DNA of 64,000 nucleotides from the NCBI RefSeq assembly GCF_023195915.1, contig NZ_JALPRP010000002.1, positions 434,001 through 498,000 of the forward strand, given 5' to 3'. Positions 17,590 to 27,187 of the stretch are shown one piece after another. The translations under genes and the position numbers were made by a program. The DNA comes from Methanoculleus sp. 7T. GTDB lineage: Archaea; Halobacteriota; Methanomicrobia; Methanomicrobiales; Methanoculleaceae. Each line of letters starts with the position of its first letter. The first letter of the stretch is position 1. The notes under the pieces were generated by a model. That model was not told the DNA's origin and did no database searches. It saw nothing but the letters and a program-made list of their open reading frames with translations.

Positions 17590-18186
17590 TCAGAGGTACT
17601 GCGAGAGCGTCTCCAGGGTGATGCGGTAGGAGTCGATCTCGTCCACGCTGACGATGAGGTAGAAGTCCTTGCCGCCCCTCTGAACGTTTTTGACAATGGT
17701 TCCCGGATAGTGCAGGTCGGCCCCTTCTACAACGGCCCCGCTCTCCAGATCGACCAACGCCATCCTGAAATGCGCCGCTTCCGGTTTTACCGTTGCGGAT
17801 ACACTGCAGTTGAGCCTCCAGACCGCATACGGCACGTGGAACGTCTCCGTAATGCCGCCTCTTGACTCCTCGATGTAAGCAAACGGGATAATATCCGCAC
17901 TCTTCTTCCACAGCGGATCGGACCCGCCGTAGAGCGCCAGGTTTTCAGGGAGGTAGCAGCAGGGGTAACTCCAGACCTTGGTCGTATACGAGACCCGGGT
18001 CAGTTTGGGCGGCACGGGCGCTGTCGGAGTCGGTGCGACCGTAACGGACGGCGTCGGCGTATCCTCGGGGAGGACGCTCACCGGAACTTCCGGCTCGGCC
18101 TCCGCTGGAGGGGACTGGAATACCACTCCTACCGCAGAGACGATAATCAGGGCGGCAAGGATGCTGAAGACGTCGCCTTTATCCAT
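17590..18186 (-). CDS. Membrane-anchored extracytoplasmic protein
   Basis: 198 residues. One N-terminal membrane helix (FSILAALIIVSAVGVVF, about 6-23) is followed by a Pro/Thr-rich spacer (about 30-60) and a globular domain with a CC pair (SYPCCYLP) and beta-rich sequence up to the C-terminus. It has the layout of a signal-anchored outer-face protein. No family recognised. It lies convergent with the two small genes upstream in coordinate. Confidence 0.7.
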   Translation of the reverse strand: MDKGDVFSILAALIIVSAVGVVFQSPPAEAEPEVPVSVLPEDTPTPSVTVAPTPTAPVPPKLTRVSYTTKVWSYPCCYLPENLALYGGSDPLWKKSADIIPFAYIEESRGGITETFHVPYAVWRLNCSVSATVKPEAAHFRMALVDLESGAVVEGADLHYPGTIVKNVQRGGKDFYLIVSVDEIDSYRITLETLSQYL

Positions 18187-18928: not shown

Positions 18929-19741
18929 CTACGCAGCCTTCCGCAGTATCTTCTGCATAACGTTATAAGGCGCAAAGAGGTGCTCCACCTCGCGCCCTAG
19001 GTACTCCGTCTTCCCCATGACATAGTAACCGTCGGCGGCAAGTGCAGAATGGAAGAGGTGGGCGAGTTCGTTCTTCTGCTCCTCGGTAAAGTAGATGGTG
19101 ACGTTTCGGCAGGTGACGGCGTCGAGATATCTGGCGATGGGAACGCCCGACATCAGGTCGTGCTGTCGGAACTTGACGAGGTCCTTGAGGTGGGGACGGA
19201 CCTCGAACGTACCGTCGTCGCGGCTGATAAAGTGCTTCCTGATCCGGCGCTCGTCCACATTCTCAAGCGACTTCCTGTCGTAGATGCCGGCTGTGGCTTT
19301 CTGCAGCACTACGGCGTCGATATCGGTCGCGTATATCGTTACACCGATATCTCGATGAAGCGCCATCAGTTCGTGCATGAGGATCGCAATCGAGTAGGGT
19401 TCTTCACCGGTGGCGCAGCCGGCACACCAGATCCGGATGGATCTTCCGCGGCGGGCCAGATCCGGCAGCACCTCCCGTTGCAGCACCTCAAAGACCTCAG
19501 GGTCGCGGAAAAACTTGGTGACGTTGATGGTGAGGGCGTTGCGGAGCAGGTCGATCTCCTGCGGGTTTGCGAGAAGGTACTTGTGATAGGCCTCGTAGTC
19601 CTCGGTATTCGTCAGGCGCATCCTCGAGAGGATGCGCCGCTTGATGTAATCTTCTTTGTAGTTTGAGCACTTGATTCCGACAAGTTTCTCGATGCTCCTC
19701 TGGAGCGACAGGAATGCATCCATGCTGTTCTTATCTCTCAC
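18929..19741 (-). CDS. cheR: Chemotaxis receptor methyltransferase CheR
   Basis: 270 residues from a GTG; an ATG six codons in is an alternative. CheR transfers methyl groups from SAM to glutamates of chemoreceptors. The N-terminal helical domain is about 10-75, the SAM-binding motif IWCAGCATGEEPYSIA about 103-118, and the later DAVTCRNVTIYF marks the catalytic fold. The gene is last in a minus-strand run parA-mcp-cheW-cheR with 3-14 bp gaps, so the methylated receptor is most likely the MCP in the same operon. No cheB or cheA is in the window. Confidence 0.95.
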   Translation of the reverse strand: MRDKNSMDAFLSLQRSIEKLVGIKCSNYKEDYIKRRILSRMRLTNTEDYEAYHKYLLANPQEIDLLRNALTINVTKFFRDPEVFEVLQREVLPDLARRGRSIRIWCAGCATGEEPYSIAILMHELMALHRDIGVTIYATDIDAVVLQKATAGIYDRKSLENVDERRIRKHFISRDDGTFEVRPHLKDLVKFRQHDLMSGVPIARYLDAVTCRNVTIYFTEEQKNELAHLFHSALAADGYYVMGKTEYLGREVEHLFAPYNVMQKILRKAA

Positions 19742-19755
19742 CGGGTCTCGCGGTC

Positions 19756-20235
19756 TTACTGGGCATTCTGATAGTGTCCGAGGTCGCCGATAACTTTCTG
19801 GACATCGAGCCAGATGATGAGCGTCTTTGCCTTCTCGTCGTCCTCGCCCCCTATCTTGATGATGCCTTTGACGTAGCTGCTGATCGATGACGTAATACCG
19901 TCGCTGATATGTTCGATGTCTTCGTTACGGACCTGAATGACGCTATGGACATCGTCGACGATGATCCCCACGTTCGATCCGCTCGCCACGTCCGGCATCA
20001 GCACGACGATCTTCTGGCTCTCCACCACCTCGGATTCGGGAAGCCCGAGGAGGTTTCGGAGATCGATGATGTTCGTAATCTCACCTCGCAGGTTGATGAT
20101 GCCGGCAAGGTACCGAGGAGCACGGGGGAGGGGAGTGATCGGCATCATCTCCACGATCTCCCGTGCTATCTGGATATCCAGTGCGTAGTGTTCTTCCCCG
20201 AGTTGGAACTCTACCACATCTATGGATGCTGCCAT
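19756..20235 (-). CDS. cheW: Chemotaxis adaptor CheW
   Basis: 159 residues. It is a two-barrel SH3-like adaptor that joins receptors to the CheA kinase. Conserved parts visible are FQLGEEHYALDI, the LPRAPRYLAGIINLRGEI block with the receptor-contact Arg, and VGIIVDDVHSVIQV. It follows the MCP gene by 9 bp, so the two are translated from one mRNA. The KGIIKIGGED segment differs from the usual GIG motif but keeps the fold. Confidence 0.95.
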   Translation of the reverse strand: MAASIDVVEFQLGEEHYALDIQIAREIVEMMPITPLPRAPRYLAGIINLRGEITNIIDLRNLLGLPESEVVESQKIVVLMPDVASGSNVGIIVDDVHSVIQVRNEDIEHISDGITSSISSYVKGIIKIGGEDDEKAKTLIIWLDVQKVIGDLGHYQNAQ

Positions 20236-20244
20236 CGTCTCTCC

Positions 20245-23082
20245 TCAGTTGAGTTTGAACCGCTTCATCGTCTTCTCGAGCTGTTCGGCCATACCTGCCA
20301 GTTCATGCGATGCGCTGCCGACCTCCTGGGTTGATGCGCTGACCTCCTCGGCAAGTGCGGCCATATCCTCGGTGCGGGCCAGGTTCTCCTTCGTCATGTG
20401 GGTGGACTCGTCCATCTTCTGCATGACGTCGTTGGTGGAGCCGGCCTGGTCTTCGGTGGCCTTCGTAATCTCGGTGATGCCGTGGGCGACCACTTCCACG
20501 CCGTTGACGATCCGGTTCAAGCCCGCGATGACCTTGTTGACGCTCTCGATGCCTGCCTGGATCTCCTGATGGGACGCCTGCATGGAGCCTGCGGTCTTCT
20601 CGGTGCTGGCCTGGATCGTCCGGATCAGGTTCTCGATATCCTGGCTCGCCCGCTTGGACTCGCCGGCAAGGTTCCTGATCTCGCCTGCGACCACGGCGAA
20701 CCCGCGGCCGTGCTCTCCGGCGCGGGCGGCCTCGATTGCGGCGTTGAGCGCAAGAAGGTTGGTCTGGTTGGCGATATCGGTGATCAACTTGACGATGTTG
20801 TTGATCTCCCGCATCTGGTTGTTGAGCGTGCTGATCTCGTCCACGGTCTGCTTGGAGATCTCCTCGACGAGGAGCATCTTCTTCGTCGCGACCTCGCCGA
20901 GTGAAGCCGCTTCGTTCCCCTCCTTCGACGCCTTTGAGGCGTGCTCCATGACCTCCTGCGACGTGCTTGCTATCTCCTCGATCGATGCCGAGAGGTCGTT
21001 GATATCCTTGCCGATCTCCTCGATCTTATCGAGCTGCCTCCGTGCATCCTCCGACGACTGCTGCGTGGAGGTGGCAACCTGTTCCGTGGCCCGGATGATC
21101 TCGTCGGAACTCTTGCTGACTTCCTTCGTCGTCATGTCGACCTGATGAGCCGCCTTCGTCACTTCGTCGAGGAGTGTGCGTATGGCGGTCAACGAGGCGT
21201 TATAATCTACCTTCACCTTCTGGAGGGGGTCGCCGGCATCTGCGTCCACAAATGCCGTCAGGTCGCCCTCCGCCATGGCGGCGAGCGCGCCGCCGAGTTC
21301 TTCGGCGCTCTTTGCGAGCCTCTCGCTCTCCCGCTTCGCGGTCTCCATCAGGTTCCTGATCTGGTCCTCCTCTTCCTTGCTCTTGGTCCAGTCGTTCCAG
21401 ACATAGAAGGCCATCTCGATCTCGCCCTTCGCATCGAGGATGGGGATGGCGTTCAGGGTAAGGTACTTCTTCACGCCGTCGGGCCACTTGACCATGACGT
21501 CGGTCCGAGCGAGTTTCTTTGTCTCGTAGCAGGCGTAGAAGTGTTCGCCGTTGAGGATGGTGATGTCGTAGTCGTAGAGTTTCTTTGCGAGGGTCTCTTC
21601 CCGGGTCCCCCGCCACATTCGGGCATACTCATCGTTGATGTCGATCCGGCTCTTATCGGCCCGAAGCGTCGCGATCGCAAGCGGGTTCTGCTTGATCATC
21701 GCATCCACCCGGTGCTTGGTCTTCTCGACTTCCTGAGTCTCCTCTTGGAGATCGGTCCAGTCGTTCCAGACATAGAAGGCCATCTCGATCTCGCCCTTCG
21801 CATCAAGGATGGGGATGGCGTTCAGGGTGAGGTACTTCTTCACGCCGTCGGGCCACTTGACCATGACGTCGGTCTTGGCGGGCTTCTTCGTCTCGTAGCA
21901 GGCGTAGAAGTGCTCGCCGTCGAGGATGGTGATGTCGTAGTCGTAGAGTTTCTTTGCGAGGGTCTCTTCCCGCGTCCCCCGCCACATCCGGGCATACTCG
22001 TCGTTGATGTCGATCCGGCTCTTATCGGCCCGGAGCGTCGCGATCGCAAGCGGATTCAGCTTGATCATCGTGTCCACCCGGTGCTTGGTCTTCTCTGCCT
22101 CCTCCTTCTCCTCCTGAAGGTCGGTCCAGTCGTTCCAGACGTAGAAGGCCATCTCGATCTCGCCTTTCTCATCGAGGATGGGGATGGCGTTCAGGGTGAG
22201 ATACCTCTTCACGCCGTCGGGCCACTTGACCATGACGTCGGTCCGAGCGAGTTTCTTCGTCTCATAGCAGGCGTAGAAGTGTTCGCCGTTGAGGATGGTG
22301 ATGTCGTAGTCGTAGAGTTTCTTTGCGAGGGTCTCTTCCCGGGTCCCCCGCCACATCCGGACATACTCGTCGTTGATGTCGATCCGACTCTTATCAGCCC
22401 GGAGTGTCGCGATCGCAAGCGGGTTCTGCTTGATCATCGTATCCACGCGGTACTGCATCCGCCGGATCTCGTACTCTTCTCCCCGCTGTTTGGTGATATC
22501 GTTATAGACAATAAGAATGCTCTCAAGGGCATTTTCTTCATCGAAGAGCGGGATCCCATATTGCTCAAGCGTGCGGGTCCCGGAAGGGAGTTCGACTATG
22601 ACTTCGGCATACGCCTGCTTCTTCTCCCGGACCACCTGCCCAAGACCGGAACCCTCCTGCAAAGTTACCTTGAAATCCCTCAGACTTTTGCCAATGACCC
22701 GGTCCTTTGGGATCCCGCTCATCTCAGCGTACGCTGCGTTTGCTGCGGTAACCCTGAACCCCTGGTCGACGACCAAGATAGGCATCGGGTTCTGCTGGAT
22801 GAGCGTCTCGGATCGCTGACGATGGGCTCCGGCTGCCTCCAGTCGGCTCTGAAGATCTCTCTTATCCTCATCCGTCTTCGCAAGCAGCGCGTTGATCGAG
22901 ACGGCCATGGTCCGGAACTCCTCCGGAACGCCGGCAAGGTCGACCCTCGCGGAGGTGTCTCCATCGATCCCGGCGCGGAGCGCAGCCTCGATCGCTTCAG
23001 GCAATACCACCGGCCCTTGTCCGGCCGTACCCGGCACAACCGGCCCGGTAAACAGTGCTTTTCTTCCAGGTTTATCGATCAT
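20245..23082 (-). CDS. Cytoplasmic methyl-accepting chemotaxis protein with triplicated PAS
   Basis: 945 residues with no membrane helix. A HAMP-like piece lies at about 28-70, a first PAS at 93-205, then three near-identical PAS units of 123 residues each (about 211-333, 334-456, 457-579), each opening with a [20 protein letters not shown] block. A second HAMP-like linker follows, then the receptor signalling domain (600-945) with its hairpin tip in [21 protein letters not shown] soluble receptor must sense an internal signal. ParA sits directly upstream (3 bp gap), suggesting partner-dependent placement of the soluble array, as known for ParA-like PpfA in Rhodobacter. Confidence 0.93.
21344..22450 (-). 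repeat. Three tandem 369-bp PAS-coding repeats
   Basis: Three consecutive 369-bp units inside the MCP gene, each coding for one PAS domain, highly similar at DNA level. The same landmarks recur at exact 369-bp spacing (for example near 21680, 22049 and 22418). The DNA-level identity, including third codon positions, points to recent tandem duplication or ongoing gene conversion. Confidence 0.9.
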
Positions 23083-23085
23083 CGA

Positions 23086-23967
23086 TTACACATCCTCGGT
23101 ACGTTTATCGTTTAGTTCCTCAAGTGCGGTTGTTATTGCCCGGTATTCCCTGCCGGCGTCGCTTTCGGGTGCGTAGTGGGAGATCGGAAGTCCGTGTTGC
23201 TGTGTCTCGTAGATTGCGGGCGAGTAGGGAACCATGAACACCTGCTTGAACGCTTTTTTGACTTCGTTCTCAAACGATCTCAACCGCTCTCTCTCTTTCT
23301 CCTCTTCCGCGGAGGGGCCGGGCGAGAAGATCCGTTTCAAAAAGAGTGCGAGGCCGCCTGTTCCGGCCGACCGGTCGCCTGAGCCCTTCCAACGGGTCAG
23401 GATAGCGAAATCCGCAGAGATGTTCTCCCCGAGCATCTCCCTGATGTCGCCGAATACCGTCGATAGGGCATCCATGCCTTTGAGAGCAAAGGTGCCGGGA
23501 TCCAGGGTGACGACGGTGTGATCCGCAGCAACAAGGCCGTTGATGACGAACTGCCCCATACTGGGAGGCGTGTCGATCAGGATGAAGTCGTAGTTATCTC
23601 GCACGCGGGCGAGCGCCTCCCTTAACAGCCCTGCCCGGTCCTCGATACTGTAGAGATATGGTTCGACTCCTACCAGGTCCAGTGTTGCCGGAGCCAGGTC
23701 GACCCCCGATGCCGTGGGGACGATGACATCGTTGATCGCTATGTCAGGAAATCCTTCAAAGACACTCATGAAGACATCATACATGCTCAACTCAAGGCTC
23801 TCTGGGTTTACCCCCAGCCCCGTAGTGGCGTTGGCCTGCGGGTCGCAGTCCACCACCAGAACGTTCTTTCCATCTTTCTGGAGGTATCCTGCAACATTGA
23901 GGCATGACGTCGTTTTTCCCGTGCCGCCTTTGTGGTGGGCGAACGCTACAACTGTAATAACCAGCAC
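23086..23967 (-). CDS. ParA-family ATPase (chemoreceptor-array type)
   Basis: 293 residues. Deviant Walker A KGGTGKTT at about 14-21, Walker A-prime LVVDCDPQANATTG, Walker B DFILIDTPPS. A Glu/Lys-rich insertion lies at about 220-235. The start is a GTG at 23967; no ATG is available nearby. Genes of this family drive chromosome or plasmid partition or position cytoplasmic chemoreceptor clusters. Here the operon context (mcp, cheW, cheR immediately downstream) and the absence of parB argue for the second role. Confidence 0.9.
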   Translation of the reverse strand: MLVITVVAFAHHKGGTGKTTSCLNVAGYLQKDGKNVLVVDCDPQANATTGLGVNPESLELSMYDVFMSVFEGFPDIAINDVIVPTASGVDLAPATLDLVGVEPYLYSIEDRAGLLREALARVRDNYDFILIDTPPSMGQFVINGLVAADHTVVTLDPGTFALKGMDALSTVFGDIREMLGENISADFAILTRWKGSGDRSAGTGGLALFLKRIFSPGPSAEEEKERERLRSFENEVKKAFKQVFMVPYSPAIYETQQHGLPISHYAPESDAGREYRAITTALEELNDKRTEDV

Positions 23968-24156: not shown

Positions 24157-24855
24157 TCAGCGGGAGAGGCCTGTATCCGAGGAATATGTAATGGAACAGC
24201 CGTCGCCTCCGGTCGGACCCGTCGAGCCCCTGACCCTCTGTACGCGCTCGGCGATGGACGGCCGGTAATCAGGTTCGGAACGGAAGTAGCCGGGGACCGC
24301 CCGCAGGCCGGAGAGCAGGGTCTGGAGGAGAGCCCCGGGATCTCCAATCCGGTAGTGGCGCCTCATCGCCTCCGCCGCATACTGGTCGGCGGTGAACTCT
24401 TCGTCGTACATGCGGCGATAGTATGCCCGGTAGCCCAAGAGGGCGGTCAGGGCAAGGACGGCGATAAGGGCTATCTTCACGGTGGGAAAGGTGCCTATCT
24501 GCAGAAACGGTAAGATCCCCCGGAACAGCGAGTCCGCATACGGCTGATGGAGCAGGAGGAGGTAAGGAAGGATGGGGAGGGCCAAGAGAGCAGAGACCCG
24601 GGAAGAACCTCTTCTGATATGCCCCTCCTCGTGGAGCAGCACGAACCGCAGGGTGTCGTCGCTGGCCCAAGAAAGGTTTCTCTCGTAGAACGCACGACGG
24701 TAGCGAATGCTGTTGAGTGCCGCGCACCCCCGCATGGAGAGTGTGAAGGGGCACTGGACTAACCTTCTTTCTCGGTCAATCAACCCTTTTTGCTGGAGTT
24801 CCTCGAATATCCGATATAATCGTGAGTTCCTGTCCGCCCCTACCATTATATACAA
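24157..24855 (-). CDS. Membrane zinc metallopeptidase (M48-like)
   Basis: 232 residues. The zinc-binding HExxH is H75-E-E-G-H79 (VLLHEEGHIRR) and the third-ligand motif is E153-F-T-A-D (DEEFTADQYAAEA), the M48 layout. Two hydrophobic segments lie between them (about 88-103 and 125-142), as in HtpX/Ste24-like membrane peptidases. Likely role is turnover of membrane proteins. Starts at 24855 or 24846 (ATG) are both possible, and the TATA-like DNA lies right at the start. It stands alone. Confidence 0.8.
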   Translation of the reverse strand: MYIMVGADRNSRLYRIFEELQQKGLIDRERRLVQCPFTLSMRGCAALNSIRYRRAFYERNLSWASDDTLRFVLLHEEGHIRRGSSRVSALLALPILPYLLLLHQPYADSLFRGILPFLQIGTFPTVKIALIAVLALTALLGYRAYYRRMYDEEFTADQYAAEAMRRHYRIGDPGALLQTLLSGLRAVPGYFRSEPDYRPSIAERVQRVRGSTGPTGGDGCSITYSSDTGLSR

Positions 24856-25532: not shown

Positions 25533-27187
25533 CCCTGACCGGACTTGCGGCGGCACGGGGGCTTGAACCGGCGGACGCCGTCTTCTTCGGCGGCGAGGTC
25601 TTCAACCCCTTTGCGTGCGTATGGGAGAGCGTGGACTTCGCGGTGAAGGACGGCCTCATCGTCGGCGTCGGGGATTACCAAGGGAAGCGGGAGTACGACC
25701 TTGCGGGAACCTACGTGGTCCCCGGGTTGATCGACGGCCACGTCCACATCGAGAGTTCACTCCTTGCACCTGCGGAGTACGCCCGTCTCGTCCTTGCGCA
25801 CGGCACGACGACCGTGATCGCCGACCCCCATGAGATCGCCAACGTCTGCGGGGCGCCCGGAATCGAGTACATGCTCGCCGAGGGTGCGCGGACGCCGCTT
25901 GATATCCGGGTCATGCTCCCGTCCTGCGTCCCGGCGACACCGCTCGATGCTGGCGGCGCCCTGCTTGCGGCCGGAGACCTCGCCCGGTTCCGCGGACGGG
26001 AAGGAGTCATCGGGCTTGCCGAGGTGATGAACGTTCCCGGCGTTCTCGCCGGCGACGGCGATCTCCGGGCGAAGATGGACCTTTTTGCGGTGATCGACGG
26101 CCATGCACCGTTCCTCTCCGGCAAGGACCTGAACGCCTATATCTACGCCGGGGTTCAGAGCGACCACGAGTGCACAACCTTAGGAGAGGCGAGGGAGAAA
26201 CTCCTCCGGGGGATGTACGTCATGATCCGGGAGGGTTCGACCGAGCGGAACCTCCGCGACCTTCTGCCGCTCGTCGACGCCTGCACGGCGGCACGGTGCT
26301 GTTTTGCCACCGACGACCGGCACGCCGATATGCTCGCGAGCGAAGGGCATATCGACGACTGTATCAGGAAATCGGTCGCGTGCGGCCTCGAAGTCGAGCT
26401 GGCGCTCCGCATGGCCACGCTCTCCGCTGCCGAGCGGTTCGGGCTCCATGACCGGGGGGCCCTCGCTCCAGGGAGGCTCGCCGACTTCTGCATCGTCGAC
26501 GACCCCGACCGGTTCCGCGTCCTGCGGACGTTCAAGCGCGGCGTCGAGGTGGTCGATGCCGGCTACCGTCTGCCTGCCTGCCCTGCGGCTCCCTTGCGGG
26601 CCCGCGTGCCGAATGCCCGGGACATCCGGATCACCGGCCGGGGAGAGGCGCGGGTGATCGGCATCGTGCCCGGGCAGATCGTGACCCGCGACCTGCGCTG
26701 CACGGTGGACGCCGCCGAGATCCCGGACCTCGACCGGGACATACTCAAAGCGGTCGTCACCGACCGCTACCGAGCCAGCGGCTCCGGTGTCGGGCTCGTC
26801 CGGGGTTTCGGCCTGCAGGAGGGGGCGATCGCCGGGTCGGTCTCCCACGACTCCCACAACATCGTCGCCGTCGGGGTCGACGACGCCGATATCGTCCGCG
26901 CCGTCGGGGAGGTGGTCCGGCTCGGAGGCGGGCTCGTGGCGGTCTCCGGCGACGACGTGACCGCCCTCCCCCTCGAGTGCGCCGGACTTATGTCGGCCCT
27001 TCCCTATAAGGAGGTCGTGCAACGCCTCGGTGCTCTTTTGGAGCACGCGCGAAGGCTCGGGGCGGTCGAGAACCCCTTCATGTATCTCTCATTCCTCGCC
27101 CTGACCGTCATCCCCGAGGTGCGGGTCACGGAGCGGGGGGTCTTTGATGTCCGGGCCTTCGCGGACGTCCCGCTCTTCTGTGAGTGA
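25529..27187 (+). CDS. ade: Adenine deaminase with apparent CTG start
   Basis: Amidohydrolase that converts adenine to hypoxanthine and ammonia. Motifs are DGHVHIESS (metal His pair), ADPHEIANV, ATDDRHADML and the late HDSHNIVAVG, typical of the Ade family. With the first canonical in-frame start (GTG at 25631) the protein would lack about 34 residues that the family has, while no ATG, GTG or TTG lies between the in-frame stop at 25487 and 25631. A perfect SD (GGAGGT, 25517-25522) precedes CTG at 25529 by six bases, and translation from there (TLTGLAAARGLEP...) restores the expected N-terminus. That gives 552 residues. Confidence 0.9.
   Translation: MTLTGLAAARGLEPADAVFFGGEVFNPFACVWESVDFAVKDGLIVGVGDYQGKREYDLAGTYVVPGLIDGHVHIESSLLAPAEYARLVLAHGTTTVIADPHEIANVCGAPGIEYMLAEGARTPLDIRVMLPSCVPATPLDAGGALLAAGDLARFRGREGVIGLAEVMNVPGVLAGDGDLRAKMDLFAVIDGHAPFLSGKDLNAYIYAGVQSDHECTTLGEAREKLLRGMYVMIREGSTERNLRDLLPLVDACTAARCCFATDDRHADMLASEGHIDDCIRKSVACGLEVELALRMATLSAAERFGLHDRGALAPGRLADFCIVDDPDRFRVLRTFKRGVEVVDAGYRLPACPAAPLRARVPNARDIRITGRGEARVIGIVPGQIVTRDLRCTVDAAEIPDLDRDILKAVVTDRYRASGSGVGLVRGFGLQEGAIAGSVSHDSHNIVAVGVDDADIVRAVGEVVRLGGGLVAVSGDDVTALPLECAGLMSALPYKEVVQRLGALLEHARRLGAVENPFMYLSFLALTVIPEVRVTERGVFDVRAFADVPLFCE

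Follow-up and report, generated by a model that had tools for sequence, protein, structure and literature searches.

A che-linked ParA ATPase and its candidate activating peptide, associated with soluble chemoreceptors of methanogenic and ANME-1 archaea

The genome of Methanoculleus sp. 7T encodes a Soj/ParA-type ATPase in a single compact operon with a membrane-free chemoreceptor (MCP), CheW, and CheR, and comparable operons, in which a protein encoded downstream of parA bears a short, conserved, positively charged N-terminal peptide, recur well beyond this genus. We consider it likely that the operon specifies both a soluble chemoreceptor array and a dedicated positioning ATPase of the PpfA/ParC kind, in which a subunit of the array serves as the activator of ParA; the binding of the peptide to ParA, the activation of the ATPase, and the localization and partitioning of the array are steps that we infer.

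The parA-mcp-cheW-cheR operon and its distribution

The window analyzed here is a 64,000-nucleotide stretch of the 2.6 Mb genome (contig positions 434001-498000), with the operon on its minus strand in the order parA–3 bp–mcp–9 bp–cheW–14 bp–cheR. The first gene, parA (23086..23967), codes from a GTG start for a Soj/ParA-type deviant Walker ATPase of 293 aa (Pfam AAA_31, 2e-47), whose deviant Walker A motif (HKGGTGKT, residues 12-19; 23911..23934, minus strand; KGGxGKT in general form) and DxDPQxNAT motif are both invariant in 15/15 aligned orthologs. The second, mcp (20245..23082, minus strand), codes for a soluble PAS-repeat chemoreceptor of 945 aa (MCPsignal 6e-46, with additional PAS matches in Pfam), comprised of an N-terminal peptide, KPGRKALF (residues 4-11; 23050..23073, minus strand), that is conserved after parA and is a candidate for the ParA-activating element, three tandem PAS-type repeats (21343..22470, minus strand) of ~122 aa each that are 89-90% identical by pairwise alignment, and an MCP signaling domain (residues 734-895; 20398..20883, minus strand; the best stretch of PF00015). 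With this signaling domain and no transmembrane segment (highest Kyte-Doolittle 19-residue mean 1.18, against 2.75 for a hydrophobic control), the protein is a cytoplasmic chemoreceptor. Among near relatives, the ParA-linked MCP ranges in length from 705 to >1200 aa, which suggests that the number of PAS repeats may change quickly. The operon is completed by cheW (19756..20235, minus strand; 159 aa, PF01584 6.6e-33) and cheR (18929..19741, minus strand; 270 aa, PF01739 8.8e-55), the latter being the only CheR match in the genome. The gene order, the 3 bp gap, and the membrane-free receptor described in the first-pass annotation are thus borne out in coordinates, strand, and Pfam domains.

Certain flanking genes also recur. 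3' of cheR (17590-18186, minus strand) lies a gene for a protein of 198 aa that has a hydrophobic stretch near its N-terminus and no match in Pfam; among Methanomicrobiales loci long enough to include this position, most retain it, with the strand unchanged. Upstream of parA, two further neighbors are conserved: a gene for an M48-type peptidase (24157-24855, minus strand), chiefly in Methanoculleus, and, in most loci, a divergent gene resembling adenine deaminase (25631-27187, plus strand; named by eye).

The genome as a whole has three MCPs, all lacking a transmembrane segment and each followed by a CheW, and its CheA (the single H-kinase_dim match) is encoded on a different contig, where it is adjoined by cheB, cheY, cheD-like, and cheF-like genes and by genes of archaellum type (the cheD, cheF, and archaellum names being assigned by eye). 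From this inventory, the operon is one of three receptor-CheW pairs, augmented by the sole CheR and by parA. A search of the whole genome for ParB_N (PF02195), the domain that marks the ParB of a ParABS system, returned no match, which upholds the earlier claim that there is no ParB. The accompanying claim of no CheA nearby is correct for the window genome; however, it fails in a family (f32) at whose locus (L157) parA-mcp-cheY-cheB precede genes that, judged by their N-termini, appear to be cheA and cheC. No MCP other than the ParA-linked one was found in two complete Methanoculleus genomes.

Orthologs of the ParA are present in 113/232 Methanomicrobiales genomes, spanning 24/40 genera and including 26/26 good genomes of the family; their identity is 49-91% in most of the order and falls to ~37-43% in one genus (g36). 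In the 50 loci of named genomes, all from Methanomicrobiales or unclassified euryarchaeal bins, parA adjoins a gene for an MCP or for a CheW-domain protein whenever the contig extends far enough, usually with cheR after it, and such a gene lies beside parA at every ortholog locus with enough flanking sequence. The same operon is found outside Methanomicrobiales in two further families, f32 and f10; the McrA of one f10 genome matches 3sqg over its whole length with 1289 bits (next match 669), and 3sqg is the ANME-1 enzyme, hence our assignment of f10 to ANME-1. This recurrence in Methanomicrobiales, ANME-1, and a third family indicates that the operon is not a chance arrangement. Linkage of parA to mcp, raised in the first-pass annotation as a matter for checking, is therefore widely conserved, and neither of the contrary outcomes envisaged there was encountered: no ortholog among the loci read lies apart from che genes, and no parB was detected by PF02195 elsewhere in the window genome. 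A che-linked ATPase gene without ParB in many species, as is characteristic of PpfA/ParC-type systems, is what these archaea have. Open frames of >1100 aa at some loci raised the possibility of ParA-MCP gene fusions, which was not borne out, three of these loci (L098-L100) having separate parA and mcp genes.

CheA is encoded in 151/232 Methanomicrobiales genomes, with 104 having both CheA and ParA, 47 CheA only, 72 neither, and 9, several of them incomplete, ParA only. CheA is thus found in 104/113 ParA-positive as against 47/119 ParA-negative genomes (Fisher p=3e-18, a value that ignores kinship and is inflated by relatedness). The presence of ParA is also linked to the type of receptor: 51/54 MCPs lack a transmembrane segment in ten ParA-positive genomes versus 14/31 in ten genomes with CheA but no ParA (p=5e-7), and a membrane receptor occurs in 3/10 of the former versus 9/10 of the latter (p=0.02), these twenty genomes being a non-random set, several sharing a genus, that was hand-picked before the MCPs were read, such that relatedness inflates both p-values. 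In these counts, contig ends truncate a few MCPs of genome G129, and a ParA-positive genome with 28 MCPs (G197) is not included. Within a single genus (g34), soluble MCPs account for 4/4 in a ParA-positive genome (G157) and 0/4 in a ParA-negative one (G165). G129 itself (genus g26, L173-L180) has CheA and no detected ParA ortholog, and 7/9 of its MCPs are without a detected transmembrane segment, which points either to an undetected ParA or to soluble arrays that exist independently of it. Cytoplasmic arrays have been seen by cryo-tomography in Methanoregula (PMC7534058, citing Briegel 2015), and this genus is also represented among the parA loci (L045, L061).

An N-terminal peptide that follows parA

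A peptide of the pattern [RK]xGR[KRQ][AGTV][LV][FLM] is encoded at the N-terminus of a protein just downstream of parA in 76/78 intact loci (75 by the pattern and one with PGRKAVF), the other two (L047, L060) ending at a contig edge. Its carriers include 41 MCPs and 13 CheW-domain proteins, the rest being cut by contig ends or unclassified. The peptide tracks ParA rather than the receptor type: it is on an MCP in most lineages and in several others on a PAS–CheW protein, with PAS domains, a C-terminal CheW domain, and, in several cases, a Pro-rich linker. At L111-L114 a first MCP lacks the peptide and is followed by cheW and then a second MCP that bears it, and at L110 it is on the CheW protein while the MCP adjoining parA is without it. 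Each parA locus of the ParA-positive genomes has a single carrier of the peptide, either an MCP or a CheW protein; the peptide was found in 0/31 MCPs of the genomes with CheA but no ParA and was absent from the other MCPs checked. On the ParA tree, parsimony requires at least 3 changes of carrier (2-4 in bootstraps), of which the well-supported branches force only one, some branches being long. One genome (G105) has two parA-mcp loci, each parA with its own peptide (METIGRKALF in L101, KRPGRKALF in L102), which might possibly be a pair of insulated positioning systems.

At the DNA level, a pattern for PGRxALF has 139 matches in the 232 genomes, 77 of them on the parA strand and no more than 8 kb downstream of that gene (~0.05 expected), and its one match in the 2.6 Mb window genome is that of the window MCP; given that the pattern was devised with the peptide already known from some loci, these counts speak to its specificity and are not an independent discovery. 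The ParB-like basic N-terminal peptide whose presence in the MCP the first-pass annotation suggested checking is hence there and conserved. The related proposal, that the receptor itself acts as the ParB-like activator, is consistent with the candidate peptide on the MCP; however, it does not extend to the several lineages in which a CheW-domain protein has the peptide instead. An array protein with a positively charged N-terminal peptide, another trait of PpfA/ParC-type systems, is accordingly present, as a candidate activator recognized from its sequence.

The key residues of the Myxococcus xanthus ParB motif are L11, R13, L15, L18, and I19, i.e., LxRxLxxL[LI] (PMC12462528), and we checked the corresponding peptides GLGRGLEALL (Thermus) and GLGRGLSALL (Caulobacter) against PDB sequences. 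The archaeal peptide retains the G-R followed by Ala-Leu-Phe, and is ~2 residues shorter than the ParB motif between the Arg and the last hydrophobic pair; due to this shorter spacing, we term it ParB-like and do not claim homology to ParB. On the side of the ATPase, three of the four residues of the ParB-arginine site are kept (M. xanthus numbering): the equivalent of Y81 is Y in 78/78, that of E82 is D in 74/78, that of D110 is D/E in 73/74, and that of E117 is not acidic. Since conservation at this site is reported for ParA in general, strict for Y81 and E117 and functional for E82 and D110 (PMC12462528), the retention of the Y81, E82, and D110 equivalents fits activation by the peptide without being specific to it. 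An AlphaFold model of an in-frame parA-mcp read-through (with the TAA read as Gly) gave a confident ParA part with the peptide disordered (pLDDT ~26) and undocked; it is a monomer without ATP, in which a site at the dimer interface could not appear.

The ParA fold and models for array placement

In Foldseek searches, the best matches of the ParA are 9a6n, 8ray, and 6iub (E from 1e-20 to 1e-19), the nearest folds being Soj/ParA and not MinD. The family has an insertion of variable length after the strand AILTR that bears a short amphipathic helix and is short in ANME-1. In the window ParA, the helix, LALFLKRIF (residues 206-214 in the AlphaFold model; 23326..23352, minus strand), lies within this disordered insertion between segments of pLDDT <50, at a loop near the DNA-contact residues of Soj-type proteins. 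It resembles the E. coli MinD anchor GFLKRLFGG (from the MinD C-terminus EEEKKGFLKRLFGG, read from MG1655), as do its counterparts in relatives, viz., GFLKVLKRIL, NGFIRMLKRWF, and KGFLSWMKRRF. The MinD-like helix is internal, and a MinD-type C-terminal amphipathic anchor is absent from the C-terminus of the window ParA, LEELNDKRTEDV. Of the two DNA-contact positions (the R195/R224 arginine pair of Caulobacter), the second is not basic in the family (PKSVKLAES of HpSoj aligns to PYSKEVYEA of the family profile; PMC7229837 for the sites), and the first falls at the insertion, where no alignment is safe. By these alignments, the arginines through which ParA, PpfA, and PomZ bind DNA are not evident in the archaeal ParA.

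ParA/MinD ATPases are activated by positively charged N-terminal peptides of unrelated partners, with TlpT of Rhodobacter sphaeroides being a suggested case (PMC7993993). Along these lines, we propose that the MCP and CheW would form a cytoplasmic cluster with the CheA encoded elsewhere, and that ATP-bound ParA dimers would bind a cell surface, be it nucleoid or membrane. The many disordered N-terminal peptides of the MCPs on the cluster would bind these dimers and trigger ATP hydrolysis in the manner of the N-terminal peptide of ParB; by following the resulting ParA gradient, the cluster would be spaced out within the cell and divided among the daughters. In the other lineages, the PAS-CheW adaptor bearing the peptide would insert in the base plate of the array.

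It is possible, though less likely, that this ParA behaves like MinD, with the insertion helix binding lipid so that the membrane, perhaps in the vicinity of the archaellum, would hold or pattern the array, which would then not be shared over the nucleoid. The likeness of the helix to the MinD anchor and the want of evident canonical DNA-contact residues point this way, as does its amphipathicity in aggregate (mean score 1.27 over 25 sequences across lineages versus 0.87 +/- 0.085 for shuffles); further, Haloferax MinD4 and MinD2 affect the position of the chemosensory array (PMC11588486). However, the window helix is not significant when scored alone (shuffle fraction 0.35), the insertion is short in ANME-1, and both the Soj/ParA fold and the missing C-terminal anchor set the protein apart from MinD. 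A more elaborate version, in which one ParA-activating peptide was passed between unrelated array proteins and an internal amphipathic helix replaced the DNA contacts, such that a floating array is placed via the membrane, is one that we advance only tentatively and regard as somewhat doubtful.

Alternatively, ParA and the peptide might govern the assembly or stability of the array and not its position, as for ParC of Halothiobacillus, though we deem this unlikely. MCP, CheW, and CheA are generally enough for array formation, which counts against it, and an ATP-cycling enzyme with a ParB-like activation site is better suited to positioning. In its favor, the CheW-type lineages have the peptide on what is probably a component of the base plate, array formation is promoted by ParP (PMC5706961), and loss of ParC in Halothiobacillus leaves CheY diffuse in place of foci (PMC10241942). 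Direct binding of nucleoid DNA by the basic N-terminal tail, with some other role for ParA, would parallel FrzCD, which binds the nucleoid through a positively charged N-terminal tail (PMC5716589); it appears very improbable, given that the peptide stays with parA while switching among unrelated proteins, has few basic residues, and is invariant in its hydrophobic ones. Finally, a role for parA in chromosome or plasmid partition, to which its Soj-like fold and sequence might point, is hardly credible with synteny and co-occurrence with che conserved across the order and beyond and no ParB_N, and an accidental parA-che neighborhood is ruled out by that synteny.

Significance and comparison with known systems

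The placement of soluble sensor arrays in archaea is little known, and the literature that we found on it covers the Haloferax MinD proteins. PpfA homologs in che operons were recognized in 2010, with that survey reporting them in 77 species and including archaeal genomes (PMC2829493), and TlpT is already a suggested receptor-type activator. No description of the archaeal parA-mcp-cheW-cheR operon was found in the literature searched, a search that left most subscription journals outside, and within that scope the novelty lies in the family in archaea and the conservation of its peptide, in the two alternative kinds of carrier, in the link with receptors that lack membrane segments, in the extension to ANME-1, and in an insertion that may bind the membrane. 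The family supplies a candidate ATPase and a candidate activating peptide of ~10 residues, and the occurrence of the peptide on two unrelated carriers amounts to a natural experiment, which makes partner recognition testable with short synthetic peptides. It also links the presence of an ATPase to the use of membrane-free receptors within one methanogen order and extends the system to the uncultured, methane-oxidizing ANME-1 archaea.

Among known systems, MinD4 and MinD2 of Haloferax volcanii are likewise archaeal ParA/MinD ATPases that affect the placement of chemosensory arrays; however, they belong to another branch of the family and, in the same source (PMC11588486), are not described as forming an operon with a peptide-bearing receptor. 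The chromosomal ParA/ParB pair (Soj/Spo0J) shares the Soj-type fold and an N-terminal peptide in which a GR at the center precedes Ala-Leu-Phe, and differs in having ParB_N, a peptide two residues longer, and a cargo other than a receptor array. In another family of the phylum (f9), genes for distant ParA proteins precede those for small proteins with canonical ParB-type motifs at their N-termini, KKRLGRGLEALLSG and KKGKGIDALLPS (L162 5419-6670 and L159 5902-7036). The ParC/ParP system of Vibrio and relatives again combines a ParA-like ATPase with an adaptor that has a C-terminal CheW-like domain, and the PAS-CheW proteins of relatives (e.g., L042, L062, L104, and L110) share the ParP layout, with a candidate ParA-contact part at the N-terminus and a CheW domain at the other end; the window operon has no such adaptor, its MCP bearing the peptide instead. 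PpfA/TlpT of R. sphaeroides is similar in that a che operon encodes a ParA-like ATPase, in that the activator is suggested to be a soluble receptor whose N-terminus is basic, and in that there is no ParB (PMC7993993, PMC5706961, and PMC2829493). In comparison, the window system is archaeal and forms a compact parA-mcp-cheW-cheR unit, its peptide is conserved (TlpT being compared here by description and not by sequence), its ParA is without evident DNA-contact arginines, and in some archaeal lineages the peptide has a CheW-type carrier.
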